DNA of 64,000 bases from Candidatus Tumulicola sp. Its GTDB lineage: Bacteria; Vulcanimicrobiota; Vulcanimicrobiia; Eremiobacterales; Eremiobacteraceae. The notes below the pieces were generated by a model. The model was not told the origin of the DNA and ran no database searches. It worked only from the letters and a program-made list of their open reading frames with translations. The DNA lies in the NCBI GenBank assembly GCA_035601835.1, contig DATNNM010000003.1, forward strand, positions 1 through 64,000, written 5' to 3'. Of the stretch, positions 1 to 7,445 are shown one piece after another; position 1 is the first letter of the stretch, and every line of letters starts with the position of its first letter. The position numbers and the translations under genes were made by a program.

Positions 1-93
1 TATAAACCGCCCGCCGCTCCCGGCATGTTCGTGTTCGGCGACCGGAACTTTTACGGCAGCTCGAACATGCGCACGGTTGTTATCGCGATGTAG
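1..93 (+). CDS. 3' end of an unknown protein (truncated by window edge)
   Basis: Frame 1 is open from the window edge to a TAG at 91-93, about 30 codons. Nearly every third position is G or C (for example ggc, atg, ttc, gtg, ttc, ggc, gac), which is the coding pattern of this genome. The visible C-terminus reads GMFVFGDRNFYG followed by a hydrophobic end TVVIAM. No family can be named from so little. It converges with the next gene and overlaps its stop by about 14 bases. Confidence 0.5.
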   Translation, partial: YKPPAAPGMFVFGDRNFYGSSNMRTVVIAM

Positions 94-769
94 TGGAGAT
101 CAGCGCGATCGTCGTACCCAAAGCATCGGCGGAGAGCGTGACTTGTTTGCGCGCTCCGCCGGCTTTCGTCTCGAAATTGGCTACGCCACCTTCACCTGAC
201 GGGATGAACGCCTTGAGGCTCCCCTTCGGCAAGCGTGACGCATAGAATTCTTTCACCTGCTGGAGCGAAGCCGGCGTGTGGTAGTACGCGGCGGTCACCT
301 CGTACAAACCGATCTTCTTCGATACGCCGCCGCCTTGGGCGGGCTCGGCGCCGGGATAGACCGGCAGCGCGATGACCTTCGAGATGCCCGGGCTCACGGA
401 ATCGGCGGAGGGCGCAAGCGTGCCGGTCAGATAGATCGTCACGCTGTCGTTGCGCCCCTCCAGATGGACGGTGCGCTTGCGATCGTCGAAGAGCGCGAAG
501 GTGGCTTGTCGTCGCGCGGCGCTCTCAACGGCCTGCGTCTGGCGCGGCAGGTGCTGTTCGTACCATGAATACACGTCGTCGAAAGGCGCGCTCGCGCTGA
601 ACACCTCGACGACGTGCGTGCCGGATGCGTCGGTGGGAGCCGGCGGTGGGCTTTGCGCGATCGCCCGCGGATACACCGGCAGGTGCAGCGTGGAACGTTC
701 CGCATTGTCGCCGCCCGCACAGGCGAACAGCGCTAATACAAGAGGCCAGACTAGAGTCCGGCATGCCAC
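80..769 (-). CDS. Two-repeat lipoprotein of unknown function
   Basis: About 229 residues from a GTG at 769. A hydrophobic signal ends in a lipobox-like LALFAC with the Cys near residue 17, so it is probably an exported lipoprotein. The mature part looks like two copies of one domain of about 90 residues: each begins LPVYP, then has a helix with a tyrosine-rich end (YSWYEQHLP, then VKEFYASRLP), and ends with a basic strand (RKRTVHL, then RKQVTL). The start lies 10 bp after the Mrp stop, and the GTG itself is the head of a REP palindrome (745-769), so the first codons of the signal peptide are repeat-derived. No upstream ATG exists in frame except deep inside mrp. Function unknown. Confidence 0.65.
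   Translation of the reverse strand: MACRTLVWPLVLALFACAGGDNAERSTLHLPVYPRAIAQSPPPAPTDASGTHVVEVFSASAPFDDVYSWYEQHLPRQTQAVESAARRQATFALFDDRKRTVHLEGRNDSVTIYLTGTLAPSADSVSPGISKVIALPVYPGAEPAQGGGVSKKIGLYEVTAAYYHTPASLQQVKEFYASRLPKGSLKAFIPSGEGGVANFETKAGGARKQVTLSADALGTTIALISTTSR
745..769 (-). repeat. REP-like palindrome, GTGG head
   Basis: On the minus strand the element reads GTGGCAT, then a 7-bp stem (GCCGGAC with one G.T wobble pairing to GTCTGGC) around a TCTA loop. It closely matches the element at 59420-59444. The start codon and first codons of the lipoprotein gene fall inside it. Confidence 0.6.
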
Positions 770-779
770 AGGCCAAAGC

Positions 780-1823
780 CTAGATGGCAGCGGGTACGCC
801 TCGCTTGAGGGCCGGCAGCACCTTGAGGAAATTCGTGGCGAGGTGCTCGTAGTCGGCGGACTGATACTCTTCGACGCGGCCCTCGTCGCACAACTGGGTG
901 AGGGCGGGATCGATCGGCAGCTGGGCGAGCAACGGCGCACCGCTCTCCACCACCAGCTGAACGCCCTTGCTTTTTCCGAACAGCTCGAAGCGCTTGCCGG
1001 TTTCGAGGTCATCGAAATACGCCATGTTCTCAACCAGCCCGATGATCGGGGTCTCCAATTGCTGCACGAGCTTGATCGCCTTGCTCACGATCATCGTCGC
1101 CAGCCCTTGGGGCGTGCTCACCAAAACGGTGCCCGAGACCGGAAGCGCTTGCAGCACGGTCAACGGCGCGTCGGACGTGCCGGGCGGCAGATCGATGAGC
1201 AAGTAGTCGATCGTACCCCATTCGAGATCGGTATAGAACTGCTTGATCGCGGCAGAGACCATGGGCCCGCGCCAAATCACCGCTTGGTTCTCGTTCTCGA
1301 GTATCAGGTTCATGGACATGATGGCGATGCCGGTGCGCGAGACCGGCGGGTGGGGCTTGGAGTCGGCACCCTGATATGGCCGCGCGGTGACTCCGAACAG
1401 TTTCGCTTGGCTTGGTCCGGTGATGTCCGCGTCCAAGATGCCGACCGAGTAGCCGCGTCGCTGCAGCGCGATCGCGAGCAGCGCGGTGACGAGCGATTTT
1501 CCGACGCCGCCCTTGCCCGACATCACGGCCACGACGTGCTCGATGCCGGGTTTTCGCTGCCGTTCCATCGGCGGCGTCTTGCCGGCCGCGCCCGACTTGC
1601 GGCGCGGCGGCGGCACGGTGCCGTCCTTGACGAACTGCTCGAGATCGGCCATGAGGGCCGCGAGATCCAGACTATGCACGGCGGCACCACCGCGGATGCT
1701 CTCCCGGGTGGAGACGTGGCAGCCGGCGCACGGCAACCCGTGCGCGCCGAAGACGGCCTCCGAGCCCTTGTACGTGTCGACGACCTCGCGGATCAAGGTA
1801 TCGGGAGAGAGAGACAGCGGCAT
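780..1823 (-). CDS. Mrp/ApbC-family P-loop ATPase with N-terminal DUF1858-like domain
   Basis: 347 residues. Residues about 1-65 resemble a DUF1858 module, with a PCAGC motif (Cys32 and Cys35). A linker with prolines follows, then a MinD/Mrp ATPase with the deviant Walker A GKGGVGKS at 103-110, DADITGPS, and the Mrp hallmark DLPPGTSD. Mrp/NBP35 proteins carry and deliver Fe-S clusters. The C-terminal CPxC that normally binds the bridging cluster after NMSYF is absent: here the segment runs NMAYFDDLETGKRF. The only CxxC is in the N-terminal domain. It lies 10 bp upstream of the lipoprotein gene on the same strand. Mrp-type ATPase is secure; an Fe-S carrier role is less so. Confidence 0.85.
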   Translation of the reverse strand: MPLSLSPDTLIREVVDTYKGSEAVFGAHGLPCAGCHVSTRESIRGGAAVHSLDLAALMADLEQFVKDGTVPPPRRKSGAAGKTPPMERQRKPGIEHVVAVMSGKGGVGKSLVTALLAIALQRRGYSVGILDADITGPSQAKLFGVTARPYQGADSKPHPPVSRTGIAIMSMNLILENENQAVIWRGPMVSAAIKQFYTDLEWGTIDYLLIDLPPGTSDAPLTVLQALPVSGTVLVSTPQGLATMIVSKAIKLVQQLETPIIGLVENMAYFDDLETGKRFELFGKSKGVQLVVESGAPLLAQLPIDPALTQLCDEGRVEEYQSADYEHLATNFLKVLPALKRGVPAAI

Positions 1824-2709: not shown

Positions 2710-3957
2710 ATGCATGGACCATCGCTGACCTCTCGTTTCGCTTCACTTGCCGCAGCCGCGGCAGTAGTTGCGTCGATCGCAGGTTGCTCCGGCGGAGGCG
2801 GCGCGGGCGCCGGCGGGAACGTCATCAAGCTCGGCGTCGATCTGCCGCTCTCCGGTGCGGACGCCTCGATCGGCGTGCCTACCCAATACGGCGCCCAGCT
2901 TGCGGTCAAGCAAGCCAATGCCAGAAACGCGATCCCGGGATTCACCATTGAGGCAGACGTGCTCGATGACGCCGTGAACGGCGTGCACGATCCTGCGCAG
3001 GGCGCGAAGAACATCCAGTCGTTTGCGGCCGATCCGGCGGTCGTCGGTGTCGTGGGACCGTTCAACAGCAACGTGGCGCGGGCGGAGATCCCGCTCTCGA
3101 ACAGCCTTGGTCTGCCGCTGGTGAGCCCTTCGAACACGAATCCGACGCTCACCAAGGGGCCTGATGCGCTGGGCATGCGCAAAGATCACCCTGATACCAT
3201 CACCTACTTCCGAGTTTGCACGACTGACGACATCCAAGGTCCGGCGGGAGCGACCTACGAGTACAACGTGCTCAAGGCGCGCAAAGCCTACATCATCGAC
3301 GACAACGAGACGTATGGCAAGGGCGTCGCCGACCAGTGGGAAGCGCAGTTCCGCAAGCTCGGCGGCGAGGTGCTCGGTCACGATCACATCACGAAGGGTC
3401 AGCATGACTTCCACGCGCTGCTGACGCGAGTGGCCGGCACCCATCCTGACATGGTCTTCTTCGGCGGCAATTCATCCACCGGCGGCGGCGAGATCCGCAA
3501 GCAGATGCCCGACTCAGGTATGGGCACTTTGTTGTATGCCGGCGCCGACGGCATCAGCGATGATCAATTCCTCAAAGATGCCGGCGTCACGGCGGACAAC
3601 GTCTACGTCACGGTGGCTTCGGTGAATGCGGCGAAGCTGCCGGCGGCGGCGCAATTCCTCAAGGACTACCAAGCCGAATACAAGCAAGCGGTCGGACCAT
3701 ACTCGGCCAACGCGTACGCGGCGGCCTCTGCGATCATCCACGCCGCAGCCGAGGCGGTCAAGGCCAACGGCGGCACCGCGCCGACACGCGAGCAGGTACG
3801 CGCGCAGCTCGCCAAGACGAAGAACTTCCCGAGCGTCATCGGACCGTTCTCGTTCGACGCCAACGGCGACACGACCAATCGCATCATCTCGTTCTACGAA
3901 GCGGTCAAAGACAAGTGGGTGTTCGTCACGCAGCAGAACTTCGCGGTCGTGAAGTAG
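2710..3957 (+). CDS. Branched-chain amino-acid-type ABC transporter, substrate-binding lipoprotein
   Basis: 415 residues. A signal peptide ends in SIAGC with the lipid-anchored Cys at 26. The mature chain is a type I periplasmic-binding fold of the LivJ/Leu-Ile-Val class: IKLGVDLPLSG near the N-terminus, GVVGPFNS, PLVSPSNTNP, DDNETYGKGVA and a C-terminal GPFSFDANGD. An AGGAG ribosome site lies about 11 bases before the ATG. It is the first gene of a five-gene operon with two permeases and two ATPases, so it captures the substrate outside the membrane. Whether the ligand is Leu/Ile/Val, another amino acid or an amide cannot be read from the sequence. Confidence 0.9.
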   Translation: MHGPSLTSRFASLAAAAAVVASIAGCSGGGGAGAGGNVIKLGVDLPLSGADASIGVPTQYGAQLAVKQANARNAIPGFTIEADVLDDAVNGVHDPAQGAKNIQSFAADPAVVGVVGPFNSNVARAEIPLSNSLGLPLVSPSNTNPTLTKGPDALGMRKDHPDTITYFRVCTTDDIQGPAGATYEYNVLKARKAYIIDDNETYGKGVADQWEAQFRKLGGEVLGHDHITKGQHDFHALLTRVAGTHPDMVFFGGNSSTGGGEIRKQMPDSGMGTLLYAGADGISDDQFLKDAGVTADNVYVTVASVNAAKLPAAAQFLKDYQAEYKQAVGPYSANAYAAASAIIHAAAEAVKANGGTAPTREQVRAQLAKTKNFPSVIGPFSFDANGDTTNRIISFYEAVKDKWVFVTQQNFAVVK

Positions 3958-3984
3958 CGGCGCGGCGGACCGTTCGAGGCCCGC

Positions 3985-4905
3985 GTGGCGATCTTTCTCC
4001 AACAACTCATCAACGGAATAGCCCAAGGCGGGATGTACGCGCTCATCGCCTTGGGCTATACGATGGTCTACGGCATCGTCGAGCTGATCAATTTCGCGCA
4101 CGGCGACGTGTTCACGCTCGGCACGTTCATCTCCATCGCACTCTTGGCGCTCATCGGCGTGGGCTCGCAGGCCGGCATCATCAGCGGCTGGCAGGGCGCC
4201 GGCATCGCGCTGCTCGTCATCGTCTTGGCGGCGCTGCTGTGCGGCATCATCGGCGTGCTCATCGAGCGCTTGGCATATCGCCGTTTGCGCAACGCCCCGC
4301 GGCTGGCGCCGCTCATCACGGCCATCGGCGTCTCGTTCATCCTTGAAAACGTGATGCAGATCTGGATGGGACCGGCGGAGGTGTCGTTTCCGCAGTTCCT
4401 ACCGAACACCGCATGGACGTTCGGCCAGGTGCGCATCGACGCACGCGAGCTGCTGGTCGTCGGCGTGAGCGTCGTCATGATGATCCTGCTGCAGCTCTTC
4501 ATCTATAACACCAAGCTCGGCAAAGCGATGCGCGCCACCGCGCAGGATCGCGACGCCGCGCAGCTCATGGGCATCAACGTCAACTCGACCATCGCCTGGA
4601 CGTTTTTCATCGGGTCGGCGCTGGCGGGCGTGGCCGGCTTCATCGCGGGGATGTACTTCGGCACCACGGTCTTCACAAACGGTTACCAGGCGGGGTTGAA
4701 GGCGTTCACCGCAGCGGTGCTCGGGGGCATCGGCAACATCGGCGGGGCGATGCTGGGCGGTTTCCTCATCGGCATCGTGGAGGCCATGACCGCGCAATAC
4801 ATCTCAGACCAATGGACCAACGTCGCGGTGTTCTCCATCTTGGTCTTGATCTTGGTCTTCAGACCAAGCGGCTTGCTCGGCGAGAACTTGCCGGAGAAGG
4901 TGTGA
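3985..4905 (+). CDS. livH: ABC transporter permease, LivH type
   Basis: 306 residues from a GTG preceded by GAGG. It opens with the LivH-like segment LINGIAQGGMYALIALGYTMVYGI, here seen as FLQQLINGIAQGG and onwards, then INFAHGD. About eight membrane helices are visible. The cytoplasmic coupling loop (QDRDAAQLMGINVN) and the glycine-rich AAVLGGIGNIGGAMLGG near the C-terminus are typical. It lies 27 bp after the binding protein and 7 bp before the second permease. Together with LivM it forms the membrane channel of the importer. Confidence 0.9.
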   Translation: MAIFLQQLINGIAQGGMYALIALGYTMVYGIVELINFAHGDVFTLGTFISIALLALIGVGSQAGIISGWQGAGIALLVIVLAALLCGIIGVLIERLAYRRLRNAPRLAPLITAIGVSFILENVMQIWMGPAEVSFPQFLPNTAWTFGQVRIDARELLVVGVSVVMMILLQLFIYNTKLGKAMRATAQDRDAAQLMGINVNSTIAWTFFIGSALAGVAGFIAGMYFGTTVFTNGYQAGLKAFTAAVLGGIGNIGGAMLGGFLIGIVEAMTAQYISDQWTNVAVFSILVLILVFRPSGLLGENLPEKV

Positions 4906-4912
4906 CAAGCTG

Positions 4913-5968
4913 GTGAAGCGCGTCGAGCTGCCGCTCGGGTTCGGCACAGCCTCGCCGATGCAGCTCGCTGCGGCGCTGGCGGGGCTGATCTTGCTCGCGC
5001 TTTTCCCGCTGCTGGATCGCAACGCATCGCACGTGTCAGCCGTTGCGGATGCCGGCTACTTCGTGCTCCTGGTGTTCGGACTCAACATCGTGGTCGGCTT
5101 CGCGGGCTTGCTGGACCTCGGCTATGCGGCCTTCTTCGCCATCGGCGCCTACACGTACGCGATGGCGGCGTCGACGCAATTCAACCTGCATCTGAATTTC
5201 TGGCCGATGATCGTCGTGAGCGCCTGCGTCGCGGCGCTGTTCGGGGTGATCCTCGGCTTCCCGACGCTGCGGCTGCGCGGCGACTACCTCGCCATCGTGA
5301 CGTTAGGCTTCGGCGAGATCGTGCCGCAAGTGTTCTTGAATCTCGACAAGTACACCAACGGGCCTAACGGCATCTCGAACGTCGATCAGCCCACGATCGG
5401 CGCGTTTCATTTCGGTTTCAACCCGACGCCGTACTACTATGTCTACTTCGTCGCGATCCTGGTGTGCGTCGTGCTGCTCAACAACCTGCGGCGCTCTCGC
5501 ATCGGGCGAGCCTGGATGGCTATCCGTGAGGACGAATTGGCCGCGCGCCACATGGGCATCAACACGACGACGACCAAACTGCTCGCCTTCGCGATGGGCG
5601 CGTCGTTCGCGGGGCTGGCCGGCGTGATCTATGCGGCGAAACTGACGTTGATCAGCCCGGACGAATTCAACTTCTCGGTCTCGGTCACCATTCTGGCGGC
5701 GATCGTGCTGGGCGGCATGGGCAGCTTGCTCGGCGTTTTTGTGGGCGGCGTGCTGCTCGCACTGCTCAATTTCTTGATCCTGCCGCAGGCGACGAATTGG
5801 ACGCACGCGCTCGGCGCGCATCTGCATCTGCCGGCGCTGATGAGCCTCGATTTCACGAACTACCGCTACATGATCTACGGCGCGATCTTGGTGCTGGTCA
5901 TGTTGTTCAGGCCGGAAGGGCTGATCCCGACGGCCTCGCATCGCGCCGAACTGCGTGTCAAGAGATGA
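4913..5968 (+). CDS. livM: ABC transporter permease, LivM type
   Basis: 351 residues from a GTG. It has the LivM pattern: GLNIVVGFAGLLDLGYAAFF near residue 60, a middle hydrophilic segment after GFPTLRLRGDYLAIVTLGF, the coupling region WMAIREDELAARHMGIN, and AIVLGGMGSLLGVFVGG. About ten membrane segments. It overlaps the next ATPase gene by ATGA, indicating coupled translation. It pairs with LivH as the transport channel. Confidence 0.9.
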   Translation: MKRVELPLGFGTASPMQLAAALAGLILLALFPLLDRNASHVSAVADAGYFVLLVFGLNIVVGFAGLLDLGYAAFFAIGAYTYAMAASTQFNLHLNFWPMIVVSACVAALFGVILGFPTLRLRGDYLAIVTLGFGEIVPQVFLNLDKYTNGPNGISNVDQPTIGAFHFGFNPTPYYYVYFVAILVCVVLLNNLRRSRIGRAWMAIREDELAARHMGINTTTTKLLAFAMGASFAGLAGVIYAAKLTLISPDEFNFSVSVTILAAIVLGGMGSLLGVFVGGVLLALLNFLILPQATNWTHALGAHLHLPALMSLDFTNYRYMIYGAILVLVMLFRPEGLIPTASHRAELRVKR

Positions 5969-6729
5969 CGCCCCTCTTGCAGCTCGACAACGTGACGAAG
6001 CGGTTTGGCGGTTTGATCGCCGTACACGATCTCAGCCTGCAGGTCGAGCAGGGCGCCATCGTCAGCTTGATCGGGCCGAACGGCGCGGGCAAATCGACCG
6101 TGTTCAATCTCATCACCGGGATCTACGCGCCGACTTCCGGGTCGATCGAATTCAATGGCCGGCAGCTCAATGGTCTGCGGCCCGATTTGGTCGCCGCGGC
6201 CGGCGCCATGCGCACGTTTCAAAACATCCGCCTCTTCGCATTCATGAGCGTGCTCGAGAACGTGATGGTCGGGCGGCACGTCCGGATGCATGCGACCGCA
6301 TTCGACGGAGCGCTGAGAACGCCGCGAGCGGTGCGCGAGGAGCAGGCGGTCACCGATCGCGCGATGGAGCTCTTGGAATATGTCGGACTGACTCAGTACG
6401 CGTCTGAATGGGCGCGAAACTTGCCGCACGGCATGCAGCGACGCCTGGAGATCGCGCGCGCGTTGGCCGCCGATCCTACACTGCTGCTGTTGGATGAACC
6501 CGCAGCGGGGACGAATCCGGCTGAAAAGCAGCAGTTGATGAGCCTGGTGGAGTCGATCCGCGCGCGTGGTGTCACCGTGCTGCTGATCGAGCACGACATG
6601 AAACTGGTCATGGGCATCTCCGACTATATCCACGTGCTCGATCATGGGGATAAGATCAGCGAAGGGCGGCCCGAGCAGGTGCGCCACGACCCGCGCGTCA
6701 TCGAAGCGTACTTGGGGAAGGGCGCATGA
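5965..6729 (+). CDS. livG: ABC transporter ATP-binding protein, LivG type
   Basis: 254 residues, starting at the ATG of the ATGA overlap with livM; a longer open frame upstream is only a shadow. Walker A GPNGAGKST lies near residue 40, the signature LPHGMQRRLEIARAL near 155, Walker B LLLLDEPAAG near 175 and the switch His in LLIEHDMKLV. The long insert between Walker A and the signature and the NPAEKQQL segment are typical of LivG. It powers the importer together with LivF. Confidence 0.92.
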   Translation: MTPLLQLDNVTKRFGGLIAVHDLSLQVEQGAIVSLIGPNGAGKSTVFNLITGIYAPTSGSIEFNGRQLNGLRPDLVAAAGAMRTFQNIRLFAFMSVLENVMVGRHVRMHATAFDGALRTPRAVREEQAVTDRAMELLEYVGLTQYASEWARNLPHGMQRRLEIARALAADPTLLLLDEPAAGTNPAEKQQLMSLVESIRARGVTVLLIEHDMKLVMGISDYIHVLDHGDKISEGRPEQVRHDPRVIEAYLGKGA

Positions 6730-7445
6730 GCGCGCAGGTACTGGCGCTGTCGGGCGTCGAGGCGTTTTACGGGCGTATCCCGGCACTGCGCGGCATCAGC
6801 TTGACGGTCGGTGAGGGTGAAGTGGTCGCGCTCATCGGCGGCAACGGGGCCGGCAAGACGACGACTCTGCGCACGATCTCCGGCCTGGTGCGAGCGGCGA
6901 AGGGGAGCATCCATCTTCGCGACCGCGTCATCACGCACGTCTTGCCGGATCGCATCGTGCGCATGGGAGTCGTGCAGGTACCCGAAGGGCGGCGCATCTT
7001 CCCGCGCATGACGGTGCTGGAGAACTTGGAGCTCGGCGCGTTCGTCCGCACCGACAAGGCCGGCGTGCGCAAGGATCTGGACGACGTGTTCGCGCTGTTC
7101 CCTCGGCTGGCGGAGCGGCGCGCGCAGAAAGCGGGCACGCTGTCTGGCGGTGAACAGCAAATGCTGGCCATCGGGCGGGCGATGATGGCGAAGCCGAAGC
7201 TGCTCCTCTTGGACGAGCCGTCGCTCGGCCTTTCGCCGATCCTCGTCGACACGATCTTCTCGGTGATCGTCGACATCAACAAGGGCGGCGTGCCGATCCT
7301 GTTGATCGAGCAGAATGCTCGCAAAGCGCTGCAGGTCGCCTCGCGCGGTTACGTGATGGAAACGGGTACTATCGTCAAGGAAGGCACGGCGTCCGCCCTG
7401 CTCGCCGATGACGACGTGCGCAAGGCGTACTTGGGCGAGGATTAA
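6726..7445 (+). CDS. livF: ABC transporter ATP-binding protein, LivF type
   Basis: 239 residues, ATGA overlap with livG. Walker A GGNGAGKTT, the family block VPEGRRIFPRMTVLENLELG, signature LSGGEQQMLAIGRAM, Walker B LLLLDEPSLGLSP, and IEQNARKAL. It is the second ATPase subunit and the last gene of the importer operon; a REP palindrome begins about 5 bp after its stop. Confidence 0.92.
   Translation: MSAQVLALSGVEAFYGRIPALRGISLTVGEGEVVALIGGNGAGKTTTLRTISGLVRAAKGSIHLRDRVITHVLPDRIVRMGVVQVPEGRRIFPRMTVLENLELGAFVRTDKAGVRKDLDDVFALFPRLAERRAQKAGTLSGGEQQMLAIGRAMMAKPKLLLLDEPSLGLSPILVDTIFSVIVDINKGGVPILLIEQNARKALQVASRGYVMETGTIVKEGTASALLADDDVRKAYLGED

Follow-up and report, generated by a model that had tools for sequence, protein, structure and literature searches.

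Class-wide fusion of DUF1858 to an Mrp-type ATPase without the C-terminal CxxC in Vulcanimicrobiia

Mrp/NBP35 ATPases are recognised by two signatures, a deviant Walker A motif GKGGhGK[ST] and a conserved C-terminal CXXC (excerpt of PMC6345978), and in the classical carrier the cluster is held by two cysteines of each protomer (passages of PMC8593673 and PMC6345978). Other ligand arrangements have been described as well. Nbp35 carries an extra N-terminal cluster (PMC6345978, in part), while the cluster of HCF101 needs C128, C347 and C419, and its cysteines C339x7C347 and C414x4C419 lie outside the CxxC spacing (passage of PMC5890173); nonetheless HCF101 is credited, with its subclass, with a conserved CxxC in a passage of PMC7980591. 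The coupling of ATP to the cluster in Mrp ATPases is unsettled: ApbC-directed transfer in vitro is not accelerated by ATP, and ATPase-defective ApbC still transfers (excerpt of PMC8593673). Natural Mrp variants with a retained ATPase but no cluster cysteines separate these two functions, and the bacterial class described below is a fixed natural experiment of this kind, in which one other thiol pair is present.

The DUF1858-Mrp gene and its product

The stretch of DNA analysed (the window; 64,000 nucleotides of a Candidatus Tumulicola contig) starts at the contig end of a 2.57-Mb genome that is 97.9% complete. The DUF1858-Mrp fusion gene lies on the minus strand at 780..1823 as a single open frame of 347 aa, with an ATG start and the stop codon at 780-782. 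In its product a DUF1858/TIGR03980 domain, found by profile matches (residues 6-57; 1653..1808, minus strand), is connected by a linker that is variable in alignment A1 (residues 67-92; 1548..1625, minus strand) to an Mrp/NUBPL P-loop ATPase domain (residues 94-323; 855..1544, minus strand), whose solved relatives are 3kb1, 2ph1 and 8zkc. The Pfam ParA/NUBPL family PF10609 is matched with 288.2 bits against a cut-off of 27.1 (E 6.4e-86). Three further PF10609 places in the same genome are over the Pfam cut-off at 45-63 bits versus about 289 for the Mrp, and because they are far weaker the window gene is taken as the single clear Mrp of this genome.

The first family signature is present as SGKGGVGKS (residues 102-110; 1494..1520, minus strand), and the DLPPGTSD motif occupies residues 211-218 (1170..1193, minus strand); both are identical in all full-length copies of the class (99/99), in which WRGP was likewise always found. 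The second signature is missing. Residues 265-279 read ENMAYF-DDLETGKRF, and the CPxC expected after ENMAYF gives place to DDLETGKRF (residues 271-279; 987..1013, minus strand). In the alignment with 3kb1, which we take to be an A. fulgidus-type protein (ENMAYFECPNCGERT, against ENMAYFDDLETGKRF of the window protein), the lost cysteines correspond to D272 and T275.

The more specific models of the family were not reached, since the MrpORP equivalog NF041136 gave 288 bits against a curated cut-off of 450 and the ApbC equivalog NF008669 gave 190.6 bits against 348. The Di-Nase domain of MrpORP is not among the Pfam families listed for the window protein, and neither the N-terminal DUF59 nor the C-terminal DUF971 of HCF101 is among the 14 families listed for it at E up to 1.

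On the 3' side of the gene there is a frame at window positions 80-769, on the same strand and with no Pfam match at E 0.001, and on the 5' side a TANGO2-family gene (1865-2701, same strand). An apparent branched-chain amino acid ABC transporter operon, named from sequence (binding protein, two permeases and two ATPases), covers window positions 2710-7445, and such an operon adjoins Mrp in close relatives too.

Distribution and history of the variant

The search of 117 genomes of the class, with E 1e-40 as the presence threshold, found the protein in 108, including 68 of the 70 good genomes (completeness of 90% or more, contamination of 5% or less). The two remaining good genomes, G008 and G040, have no copy; what matches DUF1858 in G008 is another, separate protein. 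All 108 copies were read, 9 of them cut at or near contig ends; the relative L035 is 81% identical to the window protein. Both features to which the sequence-only reading had drawn attention, the replacement of CPxC by DDLETGKRF after NMAYF and the N-terminal DUF1858-like domain with CAGC (Cys32, Cys35), extend to the whole class: the N-terminal CxxC is present in every readable copy (104/104), while the C-terminal one occurs in none (0/103), residues 262-290 being free of cysteine in all 103 aligned copies. The two cysteines of C32-A-G-C35 (1719..1730, minus strand) are the sole invariant cysteines in the alignment of 34 proteins and the sole conserved thiol pair of the fusion; beyond them the aligned part of the 99 full-length copies contains no cysteine in 38, one in 58 and two in 3.

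The gene is situated about 780 bases from the contig end in its own assembly, which could point to a misassembly or a frame error that joined two genes or removed the cysteines; but the same fusion and the same loss are shared by the full-length copies of 99 genomes, and this explanation, whose probability is close to nil, was rejected. The fusion and the loss of the C-terminal pair are real and fixed in the class with the ATPase motifs intact, and the protein is a real, lineage-fixed variant of a known Mrp family.

In the class genomes that have the protein it is the single match at E 1e-40, with the exception of G378. There an additional ordinary Mrp with CPHC was observed (L271; G378:C82:7000-9545) on a 9.5-kb contig, and its C-terminal part holds CRCALC, which resembles the DUF971 motif of HCF101 (passage of PMC7980591); it is either an HCF101-like gene or contamination.

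In the other classes of the phylum Mrp was found in 24 of 32 genomes (E 1e-40; 25 loci), and 24 of the 25 loci keep the CxxC. The exception, L079 (G058:C214), has IPNC in place of CPxC, with one cysteine of the pair left, in a genome that is 86% complete. As read by eye, the N-termini of these loci either resemble DUF59 or are short and then in several cases rich in cysteine, and no DUF1858 was seen at any of them (the N-terminus of L080 is off the contig); the DUF1858 matches of these genomes are at places other than Mrp. Among Bacillota, 217 of 299 genomes gave matches, and the best 30 loci, a selection biased towards proteins resembling the query, all have the CxxC and a short, often cysteine-rich N-terminus. 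The Bacillota matches listed start at query residue 46 or later, so that none of them reaches the DUF1858 cysteines. In viral contigs query P0002 found no relatives and query alignment A1 found 20 loci. The search of genome contigs gave two loci only, other phyla being thus thinly sampled, and DUF1858-Mrp fusions outside the class may have been missed.

Twelve named plasmid-borne copies, picked for variety from 352 records with a match, include ten with the CxxC; the C-terminal pair is absent from B. subtilis SalA (ENMAYYESAKTGEREYVFG) and from a Prevotella Mrp (ENMAWFTPAELPENKYYIFG). Each of these two proteins has one cysteine in its whole length, hence no CxxC anywhere, and the profile scan, in which SalA was the one of the two included, gave no DUF1858 match for SalA. 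Both lost the pair with no replacement, and so loss of the pair needs no compensation. Mrp homologues lacking the N-terminal domain have thus lost the pair too, which is the finding that the sequence-only reading had itself named as speaking against it, and these data do not support a necessary tie between the loss and the N-terminal domain.

The quick tree was built from 98 ATPase domains with the motif columns excluded; it omits L084 and L035 (seemingly conspecific with L009), the divergent L124, the fragments L080 and L081, and also L079 because of its half-lost pair and its incomplete genome. The class comes out as a single group, with SH-aLRT 92 where the program's mark is 95, and stands beside the CxxC-bearing Bacillota Mrps (joint group SH-aLRT 99), away from SalA and Prevotella, although several single rows, these two included, have long branches and their exact places are therefore unsure. 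The ATPase domain is from the short, NBP35/MrpORP-like Mrp branch. Three changes of the CxxC state are required on this tree, most simply explained by a loss on the class stem that is separate from the two other losses. The DUF1858 fusion maps to the same stem and the order of the two events is indistinguishable; gain and loss on one stem make a single coincidence, beyond statistical test, and a causal link between them is unproven.

These results bear on the explanation that the protein is a non-Fe-S ATPase, a MinD-like switch for regulation or another task, in which DUF1858 would sense the redox state or nitric oxide. SalA speaks for it, being an Mrp without CxxC that is described as a transcriptional regulator with Walker motifs (excerpt of PMC5035731); but the tree groups the ATPase domain with the CxxC-bearing Bacillota Mrps and not with SalA, and the presence in 68/70 good genomes, mostly as a single match, is as expected of a housekeeping factor. 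With the features of the N-terminal domain given below also counted, this explanation is considered improbable.

The N-terminal domain and the iron-sulfur context

The N-terminal domain passes TIGR03980 (51.8 versus 44.95), which NCBIfam names "hybrid cluster protein-associated redox disulfide domain", and it passes Pfam DUF1858 when taken alone (35.5 bits versus a cut-off of 32.2), while in the whole protein the score of 30.9 is just under. Among the members tested the DUF1858 model at E up to 1 is matched by 25/25 (best 1.7e-14) and TIGR03980 by 34/34 at E of at most 0.001. The N-domain profile retrieves the solved stand-alone proteins 2k5e (3.4e-13) and 2k53 (9.3e-9), which likewise have a CxxC and, after it, the same E and H. 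The idea that the CxxC moved within the protein was rejected, as the pair lies inside an entire DUF1858 domain that has CxxC-bearing stand-alone relatives. Thus the "gained" N-terminal CxxC of the sequence-only reading is indeed there; it is not a new motif in an old domain but came with the acquired DUF1858.

The AlphaFold model of this domain is poor (mean pLDDT 61.4; 2 sequences) and shows four helices, the cysteines lying between helices two and three; the whole-protein model (mean pLDDT 53.6; 3 sequences) is also poor, and neither model was relied on. Foldseek with the N-domain model gave no match at E 0.001, the top row of its 5 being 2k5e with E 4.1, and VIA-align over 11 chains gave Z 4.2 for 2k53 and 3.6 for 2k5e, values too weak to be used by themselves; neither listing contains a RIC/YtfE chain. 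In profile comparison 14/25 members also match ScdA_N, the N-terminal domain of RIC/YtfE, though weakly (E of 1 or less, 0.0024 at best), with CxxC where ScdA_N has CC; a passage of PMC9268430 describes ScdA_N as four helices with the CC motif in a loop.

In the literature, as far as the passages cited go, DUF1858 appears as a selenoprotein family with CxxU members (PMC9312934), fused to DUF59/SufT, an Fe-S maturation domain, in four proteins (PMC4982691), with DUF2249 in DrpB of Thermus (PMC6282519), and as a gene of the NnrR (denitrification) regulon of Bradyrhizobium (PMC6710368); these passages contain neither a DUF1858-Mrp fusion nor an established function of DUF1858. The weak likeness to ScdA_N and the denitrification regulon count in favour of the improbable regulatory role. 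The model name and the selenoprotein members suggest that DUF1858 is redox-active, and CxxU members, in the part of PMC9312934 cited, point to thiol redox chemistry rather than to a cluster site.

A second DUF1858 protein, unfused to Mrp, was observed in the genome of the window at C16:16240-16392 (L168, L173) and reads GGC-x-x-C-AISE-ETIEQVSEGYGI. Several class members also have such an Mrp-free protein (L085, L164, L169-L172, L174), and the copies of G024 and G014 carry an additional C-terminal part.

The SUF core runs throughout the 31 class genomes examined for Fe-S machinery: SufB/D-type genes are present in 31/31, in the genome of the window on another contig (C11), and DUF59 proteins in 31/31. 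Nfu-type domains are patchy (14/31, 13 over the cut-off, the positives inside the class serving as an internal control), and the genome of the window has none. A-type carriers were undetected, with 0/31 genomes having PF01521 and 0/31 passing the TIGR00049 cut-off (5/31 gave matches at E 0.12 to 0.8). The Synechococcus control genome, which presumably has A-type carrier genes, was matched by neither model, and so this search may have gaps.

In eight genomes of the window's family (L148-L155) the Mrp neighbourhood contains CoxD-like AAA (8/8), XdhC/CoxI (7/8) and CoxE VWA genes (6/8), each named from one representative. Genes of these kinds mature molybdenum hydroxylases. In the genome of the window this side of the neighbourhood falls outside the contig. 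For the other large family the scan covered four neighbour clusters (aminotransferase, M48 peptidase, FolE2/HPPK protein and amidohydrolase), and none of them is an Fe-S assembly gene. The counts come from a crude gene caller that leaves Mrp unlisted in L148, L154, L156, L157, L159 and L165; L164, L166 and L167 were retrieved on account of DUF1858 rather than as surroundings of an Mrp.

With the C-terminal pair gone, classical carrier chemistry is impossible at the usual place, and since the N-terminal pair alone is invariant any cysteine-held bridging cluster must use C32/C35. This part of the earlier proposal that cluster binding may have moved to the N-terminal domain is supported; that the loss implies relocation is not supported, as SalA and the Prevotella Mrp illustrate. 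If the bridging site was relocated, a labile 4Fe-4S cluster would be bound by the two N-terminal CxxC pairs of the dimer, with the tethered domains in the role of the C-terminal CPxC, and the protein would still be a carrier. The ligand count fits, with two per protomer and four per dimer from the sole invariant cysteines, the DUF1858 gain shares its stem with the CxxC loss, and ligands placed elsewhere have precedents in HCF101 and in the N-terminal cluster of Nbp35 (passages of PMC5890173 and PMC6345978). Also, a carrier would be useful where no A-type carrier was detected (0/31) and the genome of the window has no Nfu match. On the other hand, A-type carriers are missing from many phyla (excerpt of PMC2682760), so that their absence in the class demands nothing; SalA and the Prevotella Mrp show that the pair can simply be lost; CxxU members speak for a redox use; and the CxxC with the E and H behind it is common to the stand-alone proteins, so that no remodelling for a bridging site is apparent in the domain. 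On balance relocation is possible but rather doubtful. Its fuller version, in which a bridging 4Fe-4S cluster on two mobile, tethered DUF1858 arms makes the protein the main 4Fe-4S carrier where SUF is present, A-type carriers are undetected and Nfu is undetected in many genomes, is a little less probable still.

Proposed role and comparison with known systems

The first-ranked reading, tentatively preferred though short of an even chance, is that of an ATP-dependent Fe-S maturation factor that has no classical bridging cluster and whose N-terminal dithiol takes part in redox, persulfide or transient cluster chemistry. Relocation is ranked second and the regulatory non-Fe-S role third. In favour of the first reading are the ATPase motifs present in 99/99 full-length copies, the class-wide loss of the C-terminal cysteines with C32 and C35 invariant, the genuine DUF1858 nature of the N-terminal domain with its CxxU relatives, the known fusion of DUF1858 to SufT, and SufB/D-type genes in 31/31 genomes. 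Against it count the position of the SufB/D-type genes on another contig, the neighbour clusters of the other family, which are not Fe-S genes, the lack of a copy in G008 and G040, and the poor structure models; other carriers, such as glutaredoxins, may exist. As a maturation factor, DUF1858-Mrp would act with ATP beside the SUF machinery and would lack the classical cluster where the ATPase domains of the dimer meet. The C32/C35 dithiol would most likely cycle as a redox or persulfide-handling pair at a client or scaffold, where it could supply electrons or sulfur, or briefly bind iron or a cluster, while ATP binding and hydrolysis would open and close the dimer.

Among the known systems the Bacillota Mrps (PF10609; short, NBP35/MrpORP-like) agree with the window protein over the whole ATPase domain, including the deviant Walker A, WRGP and DLPPGT, with 46-57% identity among the matches listed, and differ in that the window protein is without the CPxC and has DUF1858 in place of the short N-terminus. 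The plastid Mrp-type carrier HCF101 likewise combines an Mrp ATPase with added domains, but these are DUF59 and DUF971 and not DUF1858. SalA and the Prevotella Mrp share the Mrp ATPase without the C-terminal CxxC, and SalA also the TG-x-R-x-x-x-FG run of the window protein, whereas their N-termini are different, they have no CxxC and they are in a different part of the tree. The stand-alone DUF1858/TIGR03980 proteins 2k5e and 2k53 correspond to the N-terminal domain, whose model has in them its best, if weak, structural matches, and differ in having no fused ATPase. Finally, the SufT-DUF1858 (S6) and DUF59-P-loop NTPase (S4) architectures given in a passage of PMC4982691 resemble the fusion in that an Fe-S maturation domain is combined with either DUF1858 or a P-loop NTPase; in those architectures DUF59 is the common part, while in the window protein DUF1858 is joined directly to Mrp.
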